A stretch of DNA of 64,000 bases from Hydrogenophaga sp. (GCF_018780075.1 NZ_JADMKB010000105.1:1-64000), one strand, 5' to 3'. Positions 17,207-28,139 are shown, counted from the first letter of the stretch. Numbers and translations: made by a program. Notes: generated from the letters alone by a model not told the origin.

Positions 17207-19218
17207 TCAGCGGTAGAGCACCTGTGGCAGCCACATGCCGATGGCCGGGAACTGGTAGAGCAGGACGATGGCCAGGATCTGGATGCCCATGAAAGGCAGC
17301 ATGCCGACAAAGATCTGGTTCAGCGTCACGTGCTTGGGCGACACGCCCTTGAGGTAGAAGGCCGCCATGGCCACGGGCGGGCTCAGGAAGGCGGTTTGCA
17401 GGTTCAGCGCCACCAGCAGGCCGAAGAACAGCGGGTCCACACCAAAGTTGTCCAGCAGCGGGATGAAGATGGGCATGAAGATCACGATGATCTCGGTCCA
17501 CTCCAGCGGCCAGCCCAGGATGAAGATCAGCACCTGCGACAAGATCAGGAACTCGGTCTTGGACAGGTTCATGCTCAGCACCCAGGTCTCGACCAGTTCC
17601 TGCCCGCCCAGCAGCGCGAAGGCCGCCGAGAAAATGGCCGAGCCCACAAACAGCCAGCACACCATGGCGCTGGTCTTGGCCGTGAGGAACACGCTTTCCT
17701 TGACCACACTGAAGGTGAGCTGTCGGTAGGCCGCCGCCAGCAGGAAGCCGCCGAAGGCGCCCACCGCTGCCGCTTCCGTGGGCGTGGCCAGACCGAAGAC
17801 GATCGAACCCAGCACCGACAGGATGAGCACCAGCAGCGGGAAGAAGCTGGAGAGCAGCATCTTGAAGACTTCCAACCGCGTGAAGCTCAGGATGGCGTAG
17901 AAGATCACCATGGCCAGCAGACCCACGGCCAGGCCGATCCAGAAGCTCATGGAGGCTGGCTTGGTGGTGGCAGCAGGCTCTGCGGCCTCACCTGCGGGAG
18001 CTGCAGCAGCAGCCGGCTCGGCCACGGCATCGGGTGCCGCGCCAGCCGCAGGAGCCTCTTTCTCGGCACCGGGTGGTTCGGCCACGGCGCCTTCCTGTGC
18101 ACCCGGTGGCTCGGCCACCGCGTCGTCGGATGGGGGTTCAGCCAGACCGCCTTCTTCGGCTTCGGGTTCGGCCAGACCACCTTCGCTGGTGTTCTCGTCC
18201 ACGTTGGCGCCAGCGCCCATGGGCTGCAGCTCTTCGTAGGTTTCCACCGGCACCACGGTGGTGGCGCTCTGGTAACTGGCGAAGGCCACGGCGGCGAACA
18301 GGATCGCTGGCAGCAGTGCGATGCCCAACTGGCCCAGCAGGTACTTGGCGGACACGTCCTGGTTGCGCCGGCCTTTGAGTGCCTTGATCAGGTTGGACAC
18401 GGCCCAGCCGTCGCCGGTGGCACCGATGGCCGTCAGCGGCGCCGGCAGCGGCACGAAGCGCTGCGCTGCGGTGAGCGGCGGCGCCCAAGCCGGCTTGATC
18501 TTGGCCATGATGATCACGTACAGGATGTACAGACCGGCCAGCATGATGCCGGGGAAGAAGGCACCTGCATACAGCTGCACCACCGACACGCCGGCGGTGG
18601 CGCCGTACACGATCAACAGCACCGAGGGCGGGATCAGGATGCCCAGGCAGCCACCAGCGGTGATGACACCGGCCGACAGGCGCACGTCGTAGCCGGCGCG
18701 CAGCATCTGCGGCAGGGCCAGCAAACCCATGAGCGTGACGACCGCACCCACGATGCCGGTGGCGGTGGCGAACACCGCGCAAGTCACCAGCGTGGCCACA
18801 CCCAGCGAGCCCGGCACACGGGCCAGGGCCAGGTGCAGGCTGCGGAACAGCTTGTCGATCAGATTGGCGCGTTCCACGAGATAGCCCATGAACACGAACA
18901 GCGGGATCGAGATCAGCACGTCGTTGCTCATCACCGAAAACGCGCGCTGCACCATCAGGTCCAGCGTCTGCCGGATCGCGCCGGCGGAGGTCTGGTCGCC
19001 CGAGTGGTAGGCGAAGAACGCAAACAGCATGCCCATGCCCATGAGCGTGAACGCGGTCGGAAAGCCCAGCATGATCGCCACGACCACCAGCGAGAGCATG
19101 AGCAGGCCGTAGTGGCCGTTGGTCATGGTCGGCACGCTGATCACCATGGCCAGCACGGCCACGAGGATGAGCGCCATCAGACCGAAGCCGAACCAGAGTT
19201 CCTTGCGGATGGTCATGG
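17207..19218 (-). CDS. dctM: TRAP transporter large permease (DctM) with a long Ala/Pro/Glu-rich insert
   Basis: MTIRKELWFGFGLMALILVAVLAMV...VFMGYLVERANLIDKLFRSLHLALARVPGSLGVATLVTCAVFATATGIVGAVVTLMGLLALPQMLRAGYD. Confidence 0.93.
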
Positions 19219-19833
19219 CTGGCCGCCCTTCTGCTGCACCAGCTGGTCCAGGCTCTCGATGTCGCTGTCCTTCACGTGGACCATCTCTTTCAGCTTGTCG
19301 ACATCGACCTCTTCCACGTCGTCTTCGCGGGTCGGCCATTCACCGGTCTTCAGGCAGATCACGCAGCGCACGATCTCCACCAGGCCCTGCAGCAGCAGCA
19401 TGGCGCCCGCGATGGGCACCACGAACTTGAACGGGTAGACCGGCAGCGGGTCGGCGTTGAAGGTCTGTTCCCGGATCGCCAGCGAGTCGTTGGCAAAGGT
19501 CCAGCCGGCCCAGGTGAGCGCCACGATGCCGGGCAGGAAGAACACGATGTACAGCGTGAGGTCCACGCTGGCCTGCGTGCGCGGCTTGAAGAAGCCGTAG
19601 AGCACGTCGCCGCGCACGTGGCCGTTTTTCGCCAGGGTGTAGGCGCCCGCCGACATGAAGAGCAGGCCGTACATCATGATCTGTGCGTCCAGCACCCAGG
19701 CGTGCGGCTGGTTGAGCACGTAGCGCGAAAACACCTCCCAGCTGATCAGCAGGGTGAGGGCCACCACCGACCAGGCGCAGAGCTTGCCGAACCCGGTCGA
19801 GAGACGGTCCACCGTCCAGAGAAATTGTTGCAT
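19213..19833 (-). CDS. dctQ: TRAP transporter small permease (DctQ)
   Basis: LCAWSVVALTLLISWEVFSRYVLNQPHAWVLDAQIMMYGLLFMSAGAYTLAKNGHVRGDVLY; overlaps dctM start. Confidence 0.92.
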   Translation of the reverse strand: MQQFLWTVDRLSTGFGKLCAWSVVALTLLISWEVFSRYVLNQPHAWVLDAQIMMYGLLFMSAGAYTLAKNGHVRGDVLYGFFKPRTQASVDLTLYIVFFLPGIVALTWAGWTFANDSLAIREQTFNADPLPVYPFKFVVPIAGAMLLLQGLVEIVRCVICLKTGEWPTREDDVEEVDVDKLKEMVHVKDSDIESLDQLVQQKGGQP

Positions 19834-21548: not shown

Positions 21549-22664
21549 ATGAAGCCCCTCCAGTTGTTCGACCCCGACTCCAGCACTTTCACCTATGTGC
21601 TGTTCGACCAGTCCACCCGCGACGCGCTGATCATCGATCCGGTGGACGAGCAGATCGAACGCGACCTGGCGACGCTGCGCGAGTACGGCCTGAAGCTCGT
21701 GTGGACGGTGGAGACCCATGCCCACGCCGACCACATCACCAGCGCCGGCAAGCTCGCCGAGCTGACCGGCGCCAGGACCGCCGCGCCGGTCGGTTGCGGC
21801 ATCGGCACGGCGGGGGTGCAACTGCGGCACGCCGACACCCTGTCGTTCGGTGGCGAGACGCTGAGCGCCCTGCACACGCCGGGACACACCGCCGGCAGCA
21901 TGAGCTTCGTGTGGCGTGAGCACGTGTTCACCGGCGACACGCTGCTCATCAACGGGTGCGGCCGCACCGACTTCCAGTCCGGCAACGCCGCCGACCTTTA
22001 CCGCAGTCTCACGCAGGTGCTGTTTGCGCTGCCCGACACGACCACCGTCTGGCCGGGTCACGACTACCAGGGCCGCAGCCACTCGACCATCGGTCAGGAG
22101 AAGGCCGGCAATCCGCGGGTGGCGGGCAAGAGCGAGGCCGAGTTCGTGGCCCTCATGGACGCCCTGAACCTGCCCAAGCCCAGGCGCATCGACGAGGCCG
22201 TGCCGGCCAACCTCACCTCCGGCATCCGCCACGACATGGACGGTGCGCTGCTCATGCAGCCGCGACCCACCCAGAGCGGCTACGCCGGCGATGTGTCGCC
22301 GCAGCTGGCCTGGCAGTGGGCGCAGGCGGGCCGGGCGGTGCTGGTGGACGTGCGCACCGATGCCGAGCGTGAATGGGTGGGTTTTGTGCCGGGCGCCGTG
22401 CCGGTGGCCTGGAAGCAGTGGCCGGGCATGGCCATGAACCCGCAGTTCGACGACGCCGTGCGGCAGGCCGCGGTCGGCGGGAAGCCGCTGGTGCTGTTGT
22501 GCCGCAGCGGCGTGCGCTCCATCGCCGCCGCCAAGCGGGCCACCGAGCTTGGCCTGGAGGCCTACAACATCCTGGAAGGTTTCGAGGGCGATCCGGACGC
22601 CCAGGCTCAGCGGGGGCGAAAGGGCGGCTGGCGCCACCACGGTTTGCCCTGGCGCCAGAATTGA
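21549..22664 (+). CDS. MBL-fold persulfide dioxygenase fused to C-terminal rhodanese domain
   Basis: ETHAHADHITSAGKLAE...LHTPGHTAGSMSFVWREHVFTGDTLLINGCGRTDFQ...; rhodanese CRSGVRSIAAAKRATELG. Confidence 0.9.
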   Translation: MKPLQLFDPDSSTFTYVLFDQSTRDALIIDPVDEQIERDLATLREYGLKLVWTVETHAHADHITSAGKLAELTGARTAAPVGCGIGTAGVQLRHADTLSFGGETLSALHTPGHTAGSMSFVWREHVFTGDTLLINGCGRTDFQSGNAADLYRSLTQVLFALPDTTTVWPGHDYQGRSHSTIGQEKAGNPRVAGKSEAEFVALMDALNLPKPRRIDEAVPANLTSGIRHDMDGALLMQPRPTQSGYAGDVSPQLAWQWAQAGRAVLVDVRTDAEREWVGFVPGAVPVAWKQWPGMAMNPQFDDAVRQAAVGGKPLVLLCRSGVRSIAAAKRATELGLEAYNILEGFEGDPDAQAQRGRKGGWRHHGLPWRQN

Positions 22665-22780
22665 GCCGGTGCGCGGTCCCGGATGGCGAGGCGACCCGGC
22701 GGTTTCTGGCCTCGGCGGGAGGGCAACGGCGCCGCTTATCGGATGAACAGCCCCAAACTTGAGAAGAAAGCGTAACAACC

Positions 22781-22798
22781 CCTGTCAACCTTGACAGG
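22781..22798. promoter_or_regulatory. lux-box-like palindrome upstream of the cqsA-like gene
   Basis: CCTGTCAA-CC-TTGACAGG, perfect 8-bp arms, about 62 bp upstream of the ATG; right arm contains TTGACA (-35-like). Confidence 0.75.
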
Positions 22799-22860
22799 TG
22801 GTGCGGGGGTTTCATTTTGTTTCTTTTTTCAATGGGTTCTTCTTTACTCAGGAGAATCCC

Positions 22861-24108
22861 ATGGAACTGCTCGAAACCACCGCCCGTTCAACACCCCGTT
22901 CGGCACCCCGTTTGAGTGCGGCACTGGAGGCCCGCGTGGAGCGGGACTTTGCGCCGCGCTGGAACGGTCTCTGGAGCGGACGTTTCGCCGTCCAAGGCGC
23001 GCGGCCCGGGCCCAATTCGGTGCGGTTGGACGGCAACGACTACCTGGCCGTCTCGGGTCACCCGGACATTGTTCGCGCGCAGGTCGAGGCCCTGACCCGC
23101 TGCGGCAATTTCGCGGTGCAATCGGGCGTGTTCATGCACGATGAGCACCCGACCCGCAACCTGGAGCTGAAGCTGGCCGACTGGGTGGGCATGGACGACG
23201 GATTCGTCTGTCAATCGGGTTACGCGGCCAATGTCGGTCTGATCCAGTCGGTCGCGAACCAGGACACGCCGGTGTACCTGGACGGACAGGCCCACGCCTC
23301 GCTGTGGGAGGGGGCGCACGCGGCCCGCGCCCCGGCGCACGTGTTCCGCCACAACGACCCGCAGCACCTGGACAAGCTCATGTCGCGCGCGGGGCCGGGC
23401 CTGGTGGCGGTGGACTCGGTCTACAGCACCACGGGCGCCCTGTGTCCCCTGGAGGAGATCCTGGAGGTGGTCGAGCGGCACGGTTCCATGATCCTGGTCG
23501 ACGAATCGCATTCGCTGGGCACACACGGTCCGCGCGGCGCGGGTTTGTGCGCGCAGCTGGGCGTGACCGATCGCGTGCACTTCATCTCGGCCAGCCTGGC
23601 CAAGGCACTGGCCGGCCGTGCGGGCTTCTTCAGCGCCCCCGCGAAGCTGCGGTACCACATCCTCACGTCGAGCTTTCCCAACATCTTCAGCTCCTGTGTG
23701 CTGCCGCACGAGGCGGTCGGTCTCGGCGCGACCGTGGACGTGCTGCAGCAGGCCGATGCCGCGCGGGCCACGCTGCAGCGGCACACCCGCCGCATGCGCC
23801 AGTCGCTCACCGACATGGGCTACCCGATCCATCAGGGGACCGAACAGATCATTGCGCTGGAGGCCGGGCTCGAACCGGCCACCATCCGCCTGCGCGACGA
23901 ACTGGATGCCCGGGGTGTGCACACCGCGTTTTTTGGCGCGCCCGCGACCAGCCGCAACCGGTCGCTGGCCAGGATGACCCTGCACGCCGCGCTGACCGAG
24001 GCCGAGTTGAGCCACGTCGAGGCGGCCGCGCAGGAAGTGGCGGCGCTGGTGAAGCCCTGGGACTGGCCCGTGGCGCGCCGGAACCGGGGCGCGACTCAGC
24101 TGTCGTGA
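22861..24108 (+). CDS. cqsA: CqsA/LqsA-type quorum-sensing autoinducer synthase (PLP-dependent alpha-oxoamine synthase family)
   Basis: NDYLAVSGHPDIVRAQVEAL...FVCQSGYAANVGLIQSV...VDESHSLGTHGPRGAGLCAQLG...FISASLAKALAGRAGFFSAP; two-component genes adjacent. Confidence 0.88.
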   Translation: MELLETTARSTPRSAPRLSAALEARVERDFAPRWNGLWSGRFAVQGARPGPNSVRLDGNDYLAVSGHPDIVRAQVEALTRCGNFAVQSGVFMHDEHPTRNLELKLADWVGMDDGFVCQSGYAANVGLIQSVANQDTPVYLDGQAHASLWEGAHAARAPAHVFRHNDPQHLDKLMSRAGPGLVAVDSVYSTTGALCPLEEILEVVERHGSMILVDESHSLGTHGPRGAGLCAQLGVTDRVHFISASLAKALAGRAGFFSAPAKLRYHILTSSFPNIFSSCVLPHEAVGLGATVDVLQQADAARATLQRHTRRMRQSLTDMGYPIHQGTEQIIALEAGLEPATIRLRDELDARGVHTAFFGAPATSRNRSLARMTLHAALTEAELSHVEAAAQEVAALVKPWDWPVARRNRGATQLS

Positions 24109-25082
24109 ATCGCGCGGGAGCCCTGCACGTCCAGGAAGTTGTGGTACGGGTACACCGGGTGCGGTGTGTCGGCATCGTCCAGGCTGAACACCGCGCCGCT
24201 CAGCAGGCTCTCGTTGCCGATGGGAAAGGCGGGGGCGGTGCGGATCGGACCGCGCAGGCCCAGCTGCTGGTGCAGCTCAACCGCGGGCAGGAGGGCGCCG
24301 CTTTGAATGGCGCGCACGGTGTCGGACCCCAGCCCCGCCGAGCGGGCCAGCTCGGCGACGTCGTTGAGACCGGCGGCGGGTTCGAGCTGCAGCCAGTGGC
24401 AGCGACCCGCCGCGTCCAGCCCGAACATGCCAAACGGCTCACCCAGCACCACGTACTCGATCCAGTGCTTCAGTGCATAGGCCTGCAGCGCCTCGGCCAG
24501 TGAAGGCACCTGCAGCAGCGACTGTTGCGCCGGTTGCAGCGCGGTGCGCCACAGCGTGTTGAGCCGGGGGTGGGCCGCGTGGGCCAGCCGGACCAGGGTG
24601 GTCAGCAGGCGCCCGGTGATGTCGGCCGTCTGTTTCGGGATGAACTGGTCGATCAAACCCTGGTTGAAGGCCTGGATGGCGATCTGCTCGTCGGCCTGAC
24701 CGGTCAGCAGGATGCGCGAGCCCGGCCAGTCCAGCAGGGTCTTGAGCACCTTGAGGCCGTCGGTTCCGGGCATGGCGTAGTCGACCACGCAGGTGTGCGC
24801 CAGCTGGTAGCGCGCCGGGTGGTTGCCCCAGTAGCTCATCACCTGCGGCAGCAGCGGATGTCCCTGGCGCCAGCGCTCGATCATCAGCAAATGCAGCGCC
24901 GCGTCGGCTTCCCACTTGGCGGGTTCATCGCGCATGCGGGCCAGGAATGCCGCAGGGCGGGAGTACAGCTCCACCTGCATGTGGGTCGGCACGACCATGC
25001 CGAGCATCTCCAGGTAGTCGATGTCGTCATCGAGAAAGAGGATGCAGCCCGAGCGGTGGTACAGGGGAAGTTTGAGGGCCAT
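24096..25082 (-). CDS. Response regulator (LqsR/JqsR-like arrangement) with uncharacterised C-terminal domain
   Basis: Receiver residues FLDDD, VVDYAMPGTDGLKVL, ILLTGQ, FIPK; long spacer between first and second Asp motifs; no HTH recognised. Confidence 0.8.
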   Translation of the reverse strand: MALKLPLYHRSGCILFLDDDIDYLEMLGMVVPTHMQVELYSRPAAFLARMRDEPAKWEADAALHLLMIERWRQGHPLLPQVMSYWGNHPARYQLAHTCVVDYAMPGTDGLKVLKTLLDWPGSRILLTGQADEQIAIQAFNQGLIDQFIPKQTADITGRLLTTLVRLAHAAHPRLNTLWRTALQPAQQSLLQVPSLAEALQAYALKHWIEYVVLGEPFGMFGLDAAGRCHWLQLEPAAGLNDVAELARSAGLGSDTVRAIQSGALLPAVELHQQLGLRGPIRTAPAFPIGNESLLSGAVFSLDDADTPHPVYPYHNFLDVQGSRAIHDS

Positions 25083-25085
25083 GGA

Positions 25086-26417
25086 TCAAGCGGTATCGGG
25101 TGACGGTTCGGCGGACGTGGGGCGGTGGATCGGCAGGTCGATCGTGAAGGTGGCGCCATGCGGTGGTTCGGAGTGCAGGCTCAGCACCCCGTCTGCGGCT
25201 TCCACCACGTTCTTGCAAAAGGTCAGGCCCAGTCCGTTGCCCACGGTGTTTTGCAGCGAGAAGAAGGGTTCGAAGACCCGCTGCTGTTTGGCCAGGGGAA
25301 TGCCCATGCCTTTGTCGGCCACCGTGAAACGTCCTCGGCCCCCGGACACCTCCACCGTGATGTGCAGCGCGCCGGTTTGCAATGCCTCGCTGGACGAGGC
25401 CAGTGAATGCAGTGCATTTTTGATCAGATTCACCAGCACCTGGGCAAACTGGGCCCGCGAGCCCAGGAAACAAAAATCTTCCTTGAGGTTCAGGGTCACG
25501 CACTCGCGCTCCCCCGGTGAGCGGTAAGGGTACTGCGTCACCACGTCCTGAACCAATTCAAACCCCATGATTCGCGTGGTCGGGCGGGGCAGGCGCAGCA
25601 ACTGGGCATTGGAAATCTGGGTGTCGATCTGCCGGTTCATGCTGCGCACCATGCTCTGCAAACGGACCGACAGGTCTTCGAGCTTCTTGCGTTTGCCCTC
25701 GGGCATGTCGGCCTGGGCCAGACCGCGCAGCACGTCGCCCATCAGGTTCACCGACGCCAGCGGCGTGCGCAACTCGTGCGCCATGACGCCCATGGTGCTC
25801 AGTGTGTTGATGAGCCGCGCCCGGCGCAGGTTGGCGCCCGACATGCCCAGCATGATGCTCATGACCCAGGCGAAAGACAGCACGGCGAGGTTGTCCAGGT
25901 CCAGACCCAGCCACGCCTGGTCGGTCCGGGTGAGTTCAAACAGCACCGCCGCCAGGGCAAACCCGGTCACCGAGCCCAGCGTGGCCAGGCGCCAGTCGGT
26001 GATGTGGTAGTAGATCAGGAGCATCGAGCAGAGGCTGGCCAGCCAGACCTTGTTGCCCTCGTTCATCAGGTACATCCAGCCAAAGTACAGCGGCAATTGT
26101 GTCCAGAAGATCAGGCCGAACACCCAGATGCTCGTGGTGGCGGTCAGGTCGCGGTTCACCCGCTTGAGCAGCAGCAGCAGGCCCATGACGGCCAGTGCAA
26201 CACGCACGCTGAAAACCTCGTAGGGCTGCGGCAGCAAGCGCCCCCACAGCCACGCGAACAGGAAATGGCCGCCGAACGTGAACAGACCCAGCCACTGAGT
26301 CCGCACCGTGGATGGGTGCAAAATAGGTTCCAGAGGAGCGTGGACGACTTCGTCCACCACCCAGCGCCAGAACCTTGCACTGGCGTTGTGAACCCACAGG
26401 CGGTCCAGCGGCAACAT
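25086..26417 (-). CDS. CqsS-like membrane sensor histidine kinase (no receiver domain)
   Basis: About six hydrophobic N-terminal segments, then VMAHELRTPLASVNLMGDVLRGL, LVNLIKNALHSL, DKGMGIPLAKQQRVFEPFFSLQ, NGLGLTFCKNVVEA. Confidence 0.88.
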   Translation of the reverse strand: MLPLDRLWVHNASARFWRWVVDEVVHAPLEPILHPSTVRTQWLGLFTFGGHFLFAWLWGRLLPQPYEVFSVRVALAVMGLLLLLKRVNRDLTATTSIWVFGLIFWTQLPLYFGWMYLMNEGNKVWLASLCSMLLIYYHITDWRLATLGSVTGFALAAVLFELTRTDQAWLGLDLDNLAVLSFAWVMSIMLGMSGANLRRARLINTLSTMGVMAHELRTPLASVNLMGDVLRGLAQADMPEGKRKKLEDLSVRLQSMVRSMNRQIDTQISNAQLLRLPRPTTRIMGFELVQDVVTQYPYRSPGERECVTLNLKEDFCFLGSRAQFAQVLVNLIKNALHSLASSSEALQTGALHITVEVSGGRGRFTVADKGMGIPLAKQQRVFEPFFSLQNTVGNGLGLTFCKNVVEAADGVLSLHSEPPHGATFTIDLPIHRPTSAEPSPDTA

Positions 26418-26504
26418 GTATTCCTTTCAGCTACGGTTCAAACCTTTCGCCAGAGCCTCTGGGACGAAGTGGTGCATTGTCCCTTTTGCGGGGCGTCCCC
26501 GGTC

Positions 26505-27176
26505 ATGACCTTGCCTGTCAATTTTGACAGCGTGGGGGTCGACGCCATTCTGGCCGATTGGGTTCGTGCGCTGCAGGACCACGGCGTGGAAGCGGTCCTG
26601 GTGCTCGGTCCGAATCCGCTGGGCGGGCGCGATGAGCGCGAGGTGCTGGCGGTGCACCCGCCGCGCCTGCTCGGTCCGGCACAGGCGCTGGCCGAGAGCC
26701 CCGACTTTGGCGCCAGCTGGCGCGACAGCGATGCGCCCCTGGTGGCCTGGCAGGACATTTCCAAATCGGCCTACGCCGAACAGGCCGGGCGCTGGCGCCG
26801 CCTGTGGCTGGCGCACGGCCACCAGACGCTGGTGCGCGTGGCGTTCAGCCTGCCGGCGGGCCGGGCGTTCGAGTGCTTCATGTTCAGCCCGCGGGCGTTT
26901 GCGGACCGCTCGGAAGCGGCCTCGCTGGCCTGGTCGGCGTTCAACATCTGGCCGATGCTGCGGCGCGCGATCGCCGAGCAGCGCGTGACCCTGAGCCCGC
27001 GCGAGCAGGAGAGCCTGAACCTCGCGTTCGAAGGGTTGACCGCCCGCGAAACGGCGCTGCGCATGGATTGTTCCGAGCGCACGGTCAATTACCACCTGGC
27101 CAACGCCATGGCCAAGCTCAAGACCGACAACAAGCTCTCGGCGGTGCAGCGGGCCTGCTGGATCGGTTTGATTTGA
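26505..27176 (+). CDS. LuxR-family transcriptional regulator (quorum-sensing type HTH, divergent N-terminal domain)
   Basis: C-terminus LSPREQESLNLAFEGLTARETALRMDCSERTVNYHLANAMAKLKTDNKLSAVQRACWIGLI; start codon uncertain (ATG 26505 or GTG 26532). Confidence 0.87.
   Translation: MTLPVNFDSVGVDAILADWVRALQDHGVEAVLVLGPNPLGGRDEREVLAVHPPRLLGPAQALAESPDFGASWRDSDAPLVAWQDISKSAYAEQAGRWRRLWLAHGHQTLVRVAFSLPAGRAFECFMFSPRAFADRSEAASLAWSAFNIWPMLRRAIAEQRVTLSPREQESLNLAFEGLTARETALRMDCSERTVNYHLANAMAKLKTDNKLSAVQRACWIGLI
26515..26530. promoter_or_regulatory. Second copy of the lux-box-like palindrome, at the luxR 5' end / about 100 bp upstream of the divergent kinase start
   Basis: CTGTCAA-TT-TTGACAG, same arms as the 22781-22798 element. 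Confidence 0.75.
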
Positions 27177-27180
27177 CCCA

Positions 27181-27259
27181 CCCCCGCCACGCTGCGCGTG
27201 ACCCCCTCAAGGGGGCGACGCAGGTGGCCCGGCAGAGCCGGTTCCACCGCATCCTGGGG
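27181..27259 (+). repeat. Dispersed intergenic multi-hairpin repeat copy
   Basis: CCCCCGCCACGCTGCGCGTGACCCCCTCAAGGGGGCGACGCAGGTGGCCCGGCAGAGCCGGTTCCACCGCATCCTGGG. Confidence 0.8.
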
Positions 27260-27374
27260 GCATTCACCTCGCGCCGGATGAGCGCTTCCGCTTGCAGGGG
27301 TTGCGTGGGCTGTCCGGCAGCGTCCGTGCTGCGCCGCCGCATATTCGGTGTTGGCCCTTGTTCATAATCGGACC

Positions 27375-28139
27375 ATGACATTCTTGGCCCTGGACGTAGG
27401 CAACACGCGATTGAAATGGGCGCTGTACGACGCACCCCGGGTGGGGGGCCGGTTGCTGGCGCATGGCGCGCAGTTCCTGGAAAACATCGAAAAGCTCGCC
27501 GAGGGCGACTGGAGCGTGCTGCCGGCCCCCACCTGGGTGCTGGGTTGCGTGGTGGCCGGAGACGCCGTCAAGCGCCGCGTGATCGAGCAAATGGAGCTGT
27601 GGGACGTGTCCCCGCAATGGGTGGTCTCCAGCGCCGCAGAGGCCGGACTGACCAATGGCTACGATCACCCGGCCCGGCTCGGGTCCGACCGCTGGGTGGC
27701 CATGATCGGTGCGCGCCAGCGGCTGTTGCAGCAGGGGCGCCCACGGCCTTGCGTGGTGGTGATGGTCGGCACGGCGGTGACGGTGGAGGCCATCGACGCC
27801 GAGGGCCGTTTTCTCGGCGGCATCATCCTGCCCGGCCACGGCATCATGTTGCGCGCGCTGGAGTCGGGCACCGCCGGCCTGCACGTGCCCACCGGCGAGG
27901 TGCGCGACTTCCCCACCAACACCAGCGACGCGCTCACCAGCGGTGGCACCTTTGCCATCGCAGGGGCTGTGCAGCGCATGGTGGACAACCTCCAGAACCA
28001 CTGCGGCGAAGCGCCCGTGGTCTTCATGACCGGTGGGGCCGGCTGGAAGATGGCGCCGAGCATGTCGACGCCGTGCGAACTGGTGGACAGCCTGATCTTC
28101 GACGGGCTGCTGGAAATCGCACATCAAAGGCTGGGGTAG
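27375..28139 (+). CDS. coaX: Type III pantothenate kinase
   Basis: [21 protein letters not shown]...[15 protein letters not shown]...[35 protein letters not shown]. Confidence 0.95.

Follow-up and report, generated by a model that had tools for sequence, protein, structure and literature searches.

The closest described relatives of the locus studied here are the Lqs system of Legionella (LqsA/LqsR/LqsS), the Jqs system of Janthinobacterium and Duganella (JqsA/JqsS/JqsR), and the CqsA/CqsS system of Vibrio. In Vibrio, output of CqsA/CqsS runs via LuxU/LuxO/HapR (PMC3376566). How LqsR-type regulators reach transcription is an open question: they have no recognized DNA-binding domain, and in vitro LqsR showed no activity as a diguanylate cyclase (PMC10653808). 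In Janthinobacterium, a conserved palindrome, the JAI-1 motif TTGA-N6/7-TCAA, lies upstream of jqsA and other Jqs-regulated genes (PMC5080296). Clusters of lqsA and lqsS, some with lqsR, have been listed in Polaromonas, Ralstonia, and other genera (PMC3376566), and a later survey described lqs clusters in many Betaproteobacteria, Hydrogenophaga included, without mention of a LuxR protein (PMC10653808).

We analyzed a 64,000-nucleotide stretch of DNA from Hydrogenophaga sp. (GCF_018780075.1, NZ_JADMKB010000105.1:1-64000), referred to here as the window, which carries such a cluster beside a gene for a LuxR-type protein. The four products are called A, R, S, and L; numbered handles designate loci (L124), genomes (G163), and contigs (C53). 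The features are as follows.

22781-22798: operator 1, the palindrome CCTGTCAACCTTGACAGG, CT-N12-AG with lux-box geometry, 62 to ~80 bp ahead of the synthase start codon
22828-22833, + strand: TTCAAT, putative synthase -10 element, 28-30 nt past the 20-bp operator (promoter role inferred)
22861-24108, + strand: A, synthase, 415 aa
24096-25082, - strand: R, response regulator, 328 aa
25086-26417, - strand: S, kinase, 443 aa
26475-26480, + strand: Y-ATTGT, putative luxR -10 element, 30 nt ahead of the start codon (promoter role inferred)
26505-27176, + strand: L, LuxR-type protein, 223 aa
26514-26531: operator 2, CCTGTCAATTTTGACAGC, within L codons 4-9; it also lies upstream of the S-R operon, which runs divergently

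The genes for A and R are convergent and overlap by 13 bp, and the cluster is flanked by an MBL/rhodanese gene and coaX. The order A> <R <S L> was exact in 27 of 30 fetched family loci, and the same order and strands were found in 78 of 80 named GTDB loci (from Hydrogenophaga, Polaromonas, Ramlibacter, Caenimonas, Tibeticola, and others), adjacency being kept over ~20 genera. One of the two exceptions (locus L113) is cut by a contig end, with L on another contig of the same genome. The other, locus L124 of Polaromonas sp. OV174, holds A, R, and S with coaX adjoining, and L is absent from that whole genome. A search of 301 family genomes (E up to 1e-70 for A and up to 1e-25 for L) found A in 31, L in 35, and both in 28. 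With 27/30 fetched and 78/80 named loci in agreement, we conclude that the four-gene arrangement is not due to chance.

Each of the described systems matches part of this arrangement. Legionella Lqs shares the synthase family, a full-length LqsR match, and separate kinase and regulator genes; it differs in gene order and in the presence of hdeD (PMC3376566), and no LuxR-type gene or lux-box-like operator is reported for it in the bearing sections of the literature searched. Jqs is likewise a betaproteobacterial A-S-R cluster, and no LuxR partner is named for it in the bearing sections of the literature searched. The Vibrio synthase and kinase are homologous to A and S, and a search of Vibrio-like clusters for a separate LqsR-type gene found none.

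Family assignment supports the conclusion that A is a PLP-dependent autoinducer synthase of the CqsA/LqsA/JqsA type; its production of an alpha-hydroxyketone is inferred. A scored 514 bits against NF005526, "alpha-hydroxyketone-type quorum-sensing autoinducer synthase" (cut-off 428), and fell under the cut-offs of the bioF (219 bits; cut-off 426) and KBL (177 bits; cut-off 460) models. Among solved structures V. cholerae CqsA is the closest, and the true BioF of the genome is a separate gene on contig C53. In the tree, the window A belongs to a clade of 16 synthases of its family with strong support (100/99), which lies among Vibrio-like and further betaproteobacterial synthases; those from outside the family are placed beyond this clade, and BioF lies far outside. 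The Vibrio-like synthase used as an anchor scores 489 bits to V. cholerae CqsA. A is 95% identical to the synthase of Hydrogenophaga sp. A37 and carries the motifs DESHS (residues 214-218) and SLAKA (residues 245-249), with Lys248 the predicted PLP lysine. An earlier note, made from the sequence alone, had called the four genes at the coordinates listed above with a cqsA-like synthase, and named clustering of the synthase with BioF/KBL and an adjacency not conserved in related genomes as grounds for refutation. The gene calls held, every open reading frame being confirmed, and neither ground applied: the model scores, separate BioF, and tree set the synthase apart from BioF/KBL, and the gene-order counts show the adjacency to be conserved.

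Profile and predicted-fold evidence identify R as a full-length LqsR homolog. R matched LqsR (6sy9) over residues 2-320 (hmmsearch, 1.2e-35), and its AlphaFold model (mean pLDDT, 93) matched the same structure in Foldseek (2e-18). Of the receiver residues in the alignment, D101, T127, and K150 do not vary and D18/D19 hardly do, and phosphorylation of R is therefore plausible. A search of R for a DNA-binding domain found none. S has a HisKA/HATPase_c core with its H-box at H214. Residues 34-429 are homologous to kinases adjoining Vibrio-like synthases, and the homology, membrane region included, extends to kinases beside both Vibrio-like and Jqs-like synthases. This homology identifies S as a membrane sensor histidine kinase of the CqsS/LqsS type; that it senses a signal is inferred, and the number of membrane spans is unsettled.

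L is a LuxR-type transcription factor by its C-terminal helix-turn-helix (HTH; Pfam GerE PF00196, 4.5e-14), and its DNA binding is inferred. That it belongs to the quorum-sensing receptor type rests on predicted fold. Foldseek with the L model (pLDDT, 88) placed QscR, RhlR, SdiA, and TraR at the top, over the full length (E, 7.5e-10; ~19% identity), with a TM of merely about 0.5. Profiles align L with LuxR proteins over the HTH only; outside it, no sequence similarity to canonical LuxR was detectable, and a Pfam search did not match the autoinducer-binding domain PF03472. The N-domain is well conserved, and no other relative of L was found in the genome at 1e-10. L has in common with QscR, SdiA, RhlR, and TraR the GerE HTH, the receptor fold, and the lux-box operator geometry, and it differs from them in lacking a Pfam autoinducer-binding match, in having an LqsR-type partner, and in the absence of LuxI from the L-bearing genomes tested. 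LuxI was found in 0 of 32 such genomes, while a positive control recovered it in 25 of 150 genomes of the order. A resident AHL synthase is therefore an improbable partner for L, and we rejected that pairing.

A LuxR gene unlike that for L adjoins the LqsR-like gene of an A/S/R cluster in genome G468, from another Burkholderiales family (L202:3654-4391, - strand). The product of this LuxR gene has a canonical Autoind_bind domain and resembles L in the HTH only, and we judged it independent of L. The same genome has a LuxI-like match containing a stop.

The two cluster palindromes are nearly identical, with common arms CCTGTCA-N4-TGACAGG. The pattern CTGTCANNNNTGACAG has three exact matches in the 5.39-Mb genome, two of them inside the cluster. 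The third (contig C12:4389; locus L067:4378-4415) was rejected as an operator, being an 11-bp-armed hairpin between convergent genes and a probable terminator. Upstream of A, at least 14 of 16 arm positions were matched in 69 of 81 loci (46 perfectly), compared with 10 of 1,534 random windows. TTCAAT stands 28-30 nt downstream of operator 1 in 68 of 81 loci, and in 66 of 79 a Y-ATTGT hexamer stands 27-39 nt, mostly 28-30 nt, before the L start; these counts, too, are uncorrected for relatedness. Operator 1 is not directly followed by a T-run. We rejected the palindrome as a -35 box, its spacing to the conserved TTCAAT being too long. We also rejected the JAI-1 motif as the operator of this cluster: TTGA-N6/7-TCAA is absent from positions 22001-28000 of the window, and from the L202 locus as well. 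Some diverged clusters (e.g., loci L037 and L097) have no clear operator.

At operator 2, which lies within coding sequence, the codon choice of L is frozen: Pro4 is CCT in 65/65 cases, Phe7 is TTT in 60/60, and Asp8 is GAC in 63/63 (65 proteins less than 95% identical, uncorrected for relatedness). At six other conserved prolines of L, CCT occurs in only 25 of about 380 cases. Moreover, loci L242 and L244 encode a changed N-terminal peptide and keep both half-sites. Frozen codons and retained half-sites together indicate selection on the DNA and not on the protein alone. We conclude that the palindromes are operators with lux-box geometry held under DNA-level constraint. The constraint is shown; binding by L is inferred, and there are no binding data.

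Loss of L and loss of the operator go together. The only intact cluster without L, locus L124, also lacks the operator, and three A-only loci (L059, L060, and L061) are likewise without both L and operator. Outside the cluster, exact sites numbered 41 in the 35 genomes with L versus 65 in the 266 without it, where the palindrome is present at a low background (Mann-Whitney p = 1e-8, uncorrected for relatedness), and a reversed control pattern gave 3 and 7 sites, respectively. The statistical tests count related genomes as independent.

Six genomes from four genera (G056, G070, G163, G176, G254, and G273; loci L241-L246) have R divergent from L and lack both A and S. These pairs occupy the same chromosomal slot, with the MBL/rhodanese gene or coaX among the flanking genes wherever the flanks are readable. 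Just past the 3' end of R, G163 and G273 carry an orphan palindrome at the position that the A promoter would have had. The survival of R-L pairs after loss of A and S, together with these orphan palindromes, suggests that R and L act jointly and that A was the gene the operator served. The one case of L without R in the family sample was a truncated copy containing a stop, from a fragmented genome (G280). A comparable case is Ralstonia PhcX, an LqsR-type regulator that persisted after its lqs synthase was lost (PMC10653808); it came to be linked to phc genes, whereas R of the present family stays with L.

Gene content, conserved order, conserved operators, DNA-level constraint, and the joint loss of L and operator are shown. 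The reading of them that we favor, with moderate confidence, is an Lqs/Jqs-type alpha-hydroxyketone cluster with L as a fixed fourth component and DNA-binding arm; what the signal is, which way regulation runs, that L binds DNA, and the step from R to L are all inferred. By family resemblance, A would make a CAI-1/LAI-1-like signal, and S would sense it at the membrane and alter R phosphorylation. Contact between R and L would be the most likely route onward, an inference from their co-retention and the absence of a DNA-binding domain in R. Family, site geometry, and co-inheritance suggest in turn that L binds CCTGTCA-N4-TGACAGG. At operator 1 it would activate the synthase promoter, giving positive feedback on signal synthesis; at operator 2, ~36 bp downstream of the presumed transcription start, it would repress its own gene, with a possible effect on the S-R operon that diverges from it. 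The site also stands at a few other promoters in each genome.

An alternative is that the N-domain of L senses a ligand directly, either the cluster signal or another metabolite; for the cluster's own signal this would mean two readers, membrane-bound S and intracellular L. In its favor, Foldseek gives this well-conserved domain the fold of the LuxR receptors QscR, SdiA, RhlR, and TraR, and L is co-inherited with the synthase. Against it, six genomes hold L and R without a synthase, and the N-domain has neither a Pfam autoinducer-binding match nor sequence similarity to canonical LuxR. We regard this alternative as unlikely.

It is also doubtful that L is an ordinary regulator of the synthase and of its own level, with R acting through a separate output, for example a c-di-GMP-related one, and no direct R-L link. 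A c-di-GMP-related output has been proposed for LqsR, for which a degenerate GGDEF-like output fold is reported (PMC10653808), and given that fold R may act without L; locus L124 indeed holds A, R, and S without L. However, R and L jointly outlive A and S in six genomes, and L without R is seen in the family sample only as the truncated, stop-containing copy in G280. Least tenable is the view that luxR is a mere neighbor and the palindromes are sites of another factor or RNA hairpins: they can form hairpins, and one exact genomic site is terminator-like, but the order in 78/80 loci, the joint loss of L and operator, a site number that tracks the presence of L, the lux-box geometry, and the lack of a T-run directly after operator 1 all speak against it.

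The favored reading, with L as the DNA-binding arm, admits a bolder form that we consider no more than possible, in which R, as an LqsR-family regulator, switches a dedicated LuxR-type partner by phosphorylation-dependent contact and L perhaps binds the signal too. If true, the locus would merge two-component with LuxR quorum sensing, and a single signal would be read by way of the two.

The remaining claims of the earlier note fared as follows. A synthase-sensor-regulator circuit is supported by homology, its alpha-hydroxyketone signal being inferred from family. The "quorum-sensing-type" label for the LuxR protein held by predicted fold and GerE HTH, with no Pfam autoinducer-binding match. 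Three observations independently back the role of this protein as a dedicated output, namely the shared operator, the L-operator co-loss, and the R-L pairs that outlive A and S; a transcriptional output is still an inference. The claim that no circuit with these parts had been described held in part: the lqsA/R/S portion had already been surveyed (PMC10653808), and L is unreported in the papers searched. The two near-identical palindromes are an addition to that note. No report of the LuxR partner or of a CCTGTCA-N4-TGACAGG operator was found in the open-access literature searched, and subscription papers may have been missed; as far as that literature goes, L as partner and the operator are new, and the lqs part in Hydrogenophaga is known.

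In Hydrogenophaga, Polaromonas, and their relatives, L and the matching palindrome suggest how a response regulator without a recognized DNA-binding domain may control genes, and the step from sensing to gene control becomes reducible in this lineage to two proteins and two promoters. Quorum sensing in Comamonadaceae without LuxI is little described in the open-access literature searched, and the operator motif can be used to list target genes in many environmental members of this group.

In three genera, exact sites stand ahead of genes, or of an operon, encoding exported phosphonate-binding-like proteins (PF12974; loci L220, L228, and L238; genomes G165, G201, and G199), and these genes are a possible shared target of the operator. 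Sites confined to a single genus lie near genes for a ShlB-type secretion protein, a GH5 cellulase, NDH-2, and others, and the G165 species has seven exact sites. With only the phosphonate-binding-like proteins recurring over three genera, we rejected the call of a core regulon. In three genomes (loci L233, L234, and L237), the palindrome lies between the rsmD and M16 peptidase genes, where it could be an operator or a hairpin.

Elsewhere in the window, positions 17207-19339 (- strand) encode a TRAP-type large permease with a repetitive Ala/Pro/Glu-rich insertion made up of AVAEPPGA-like repeats.
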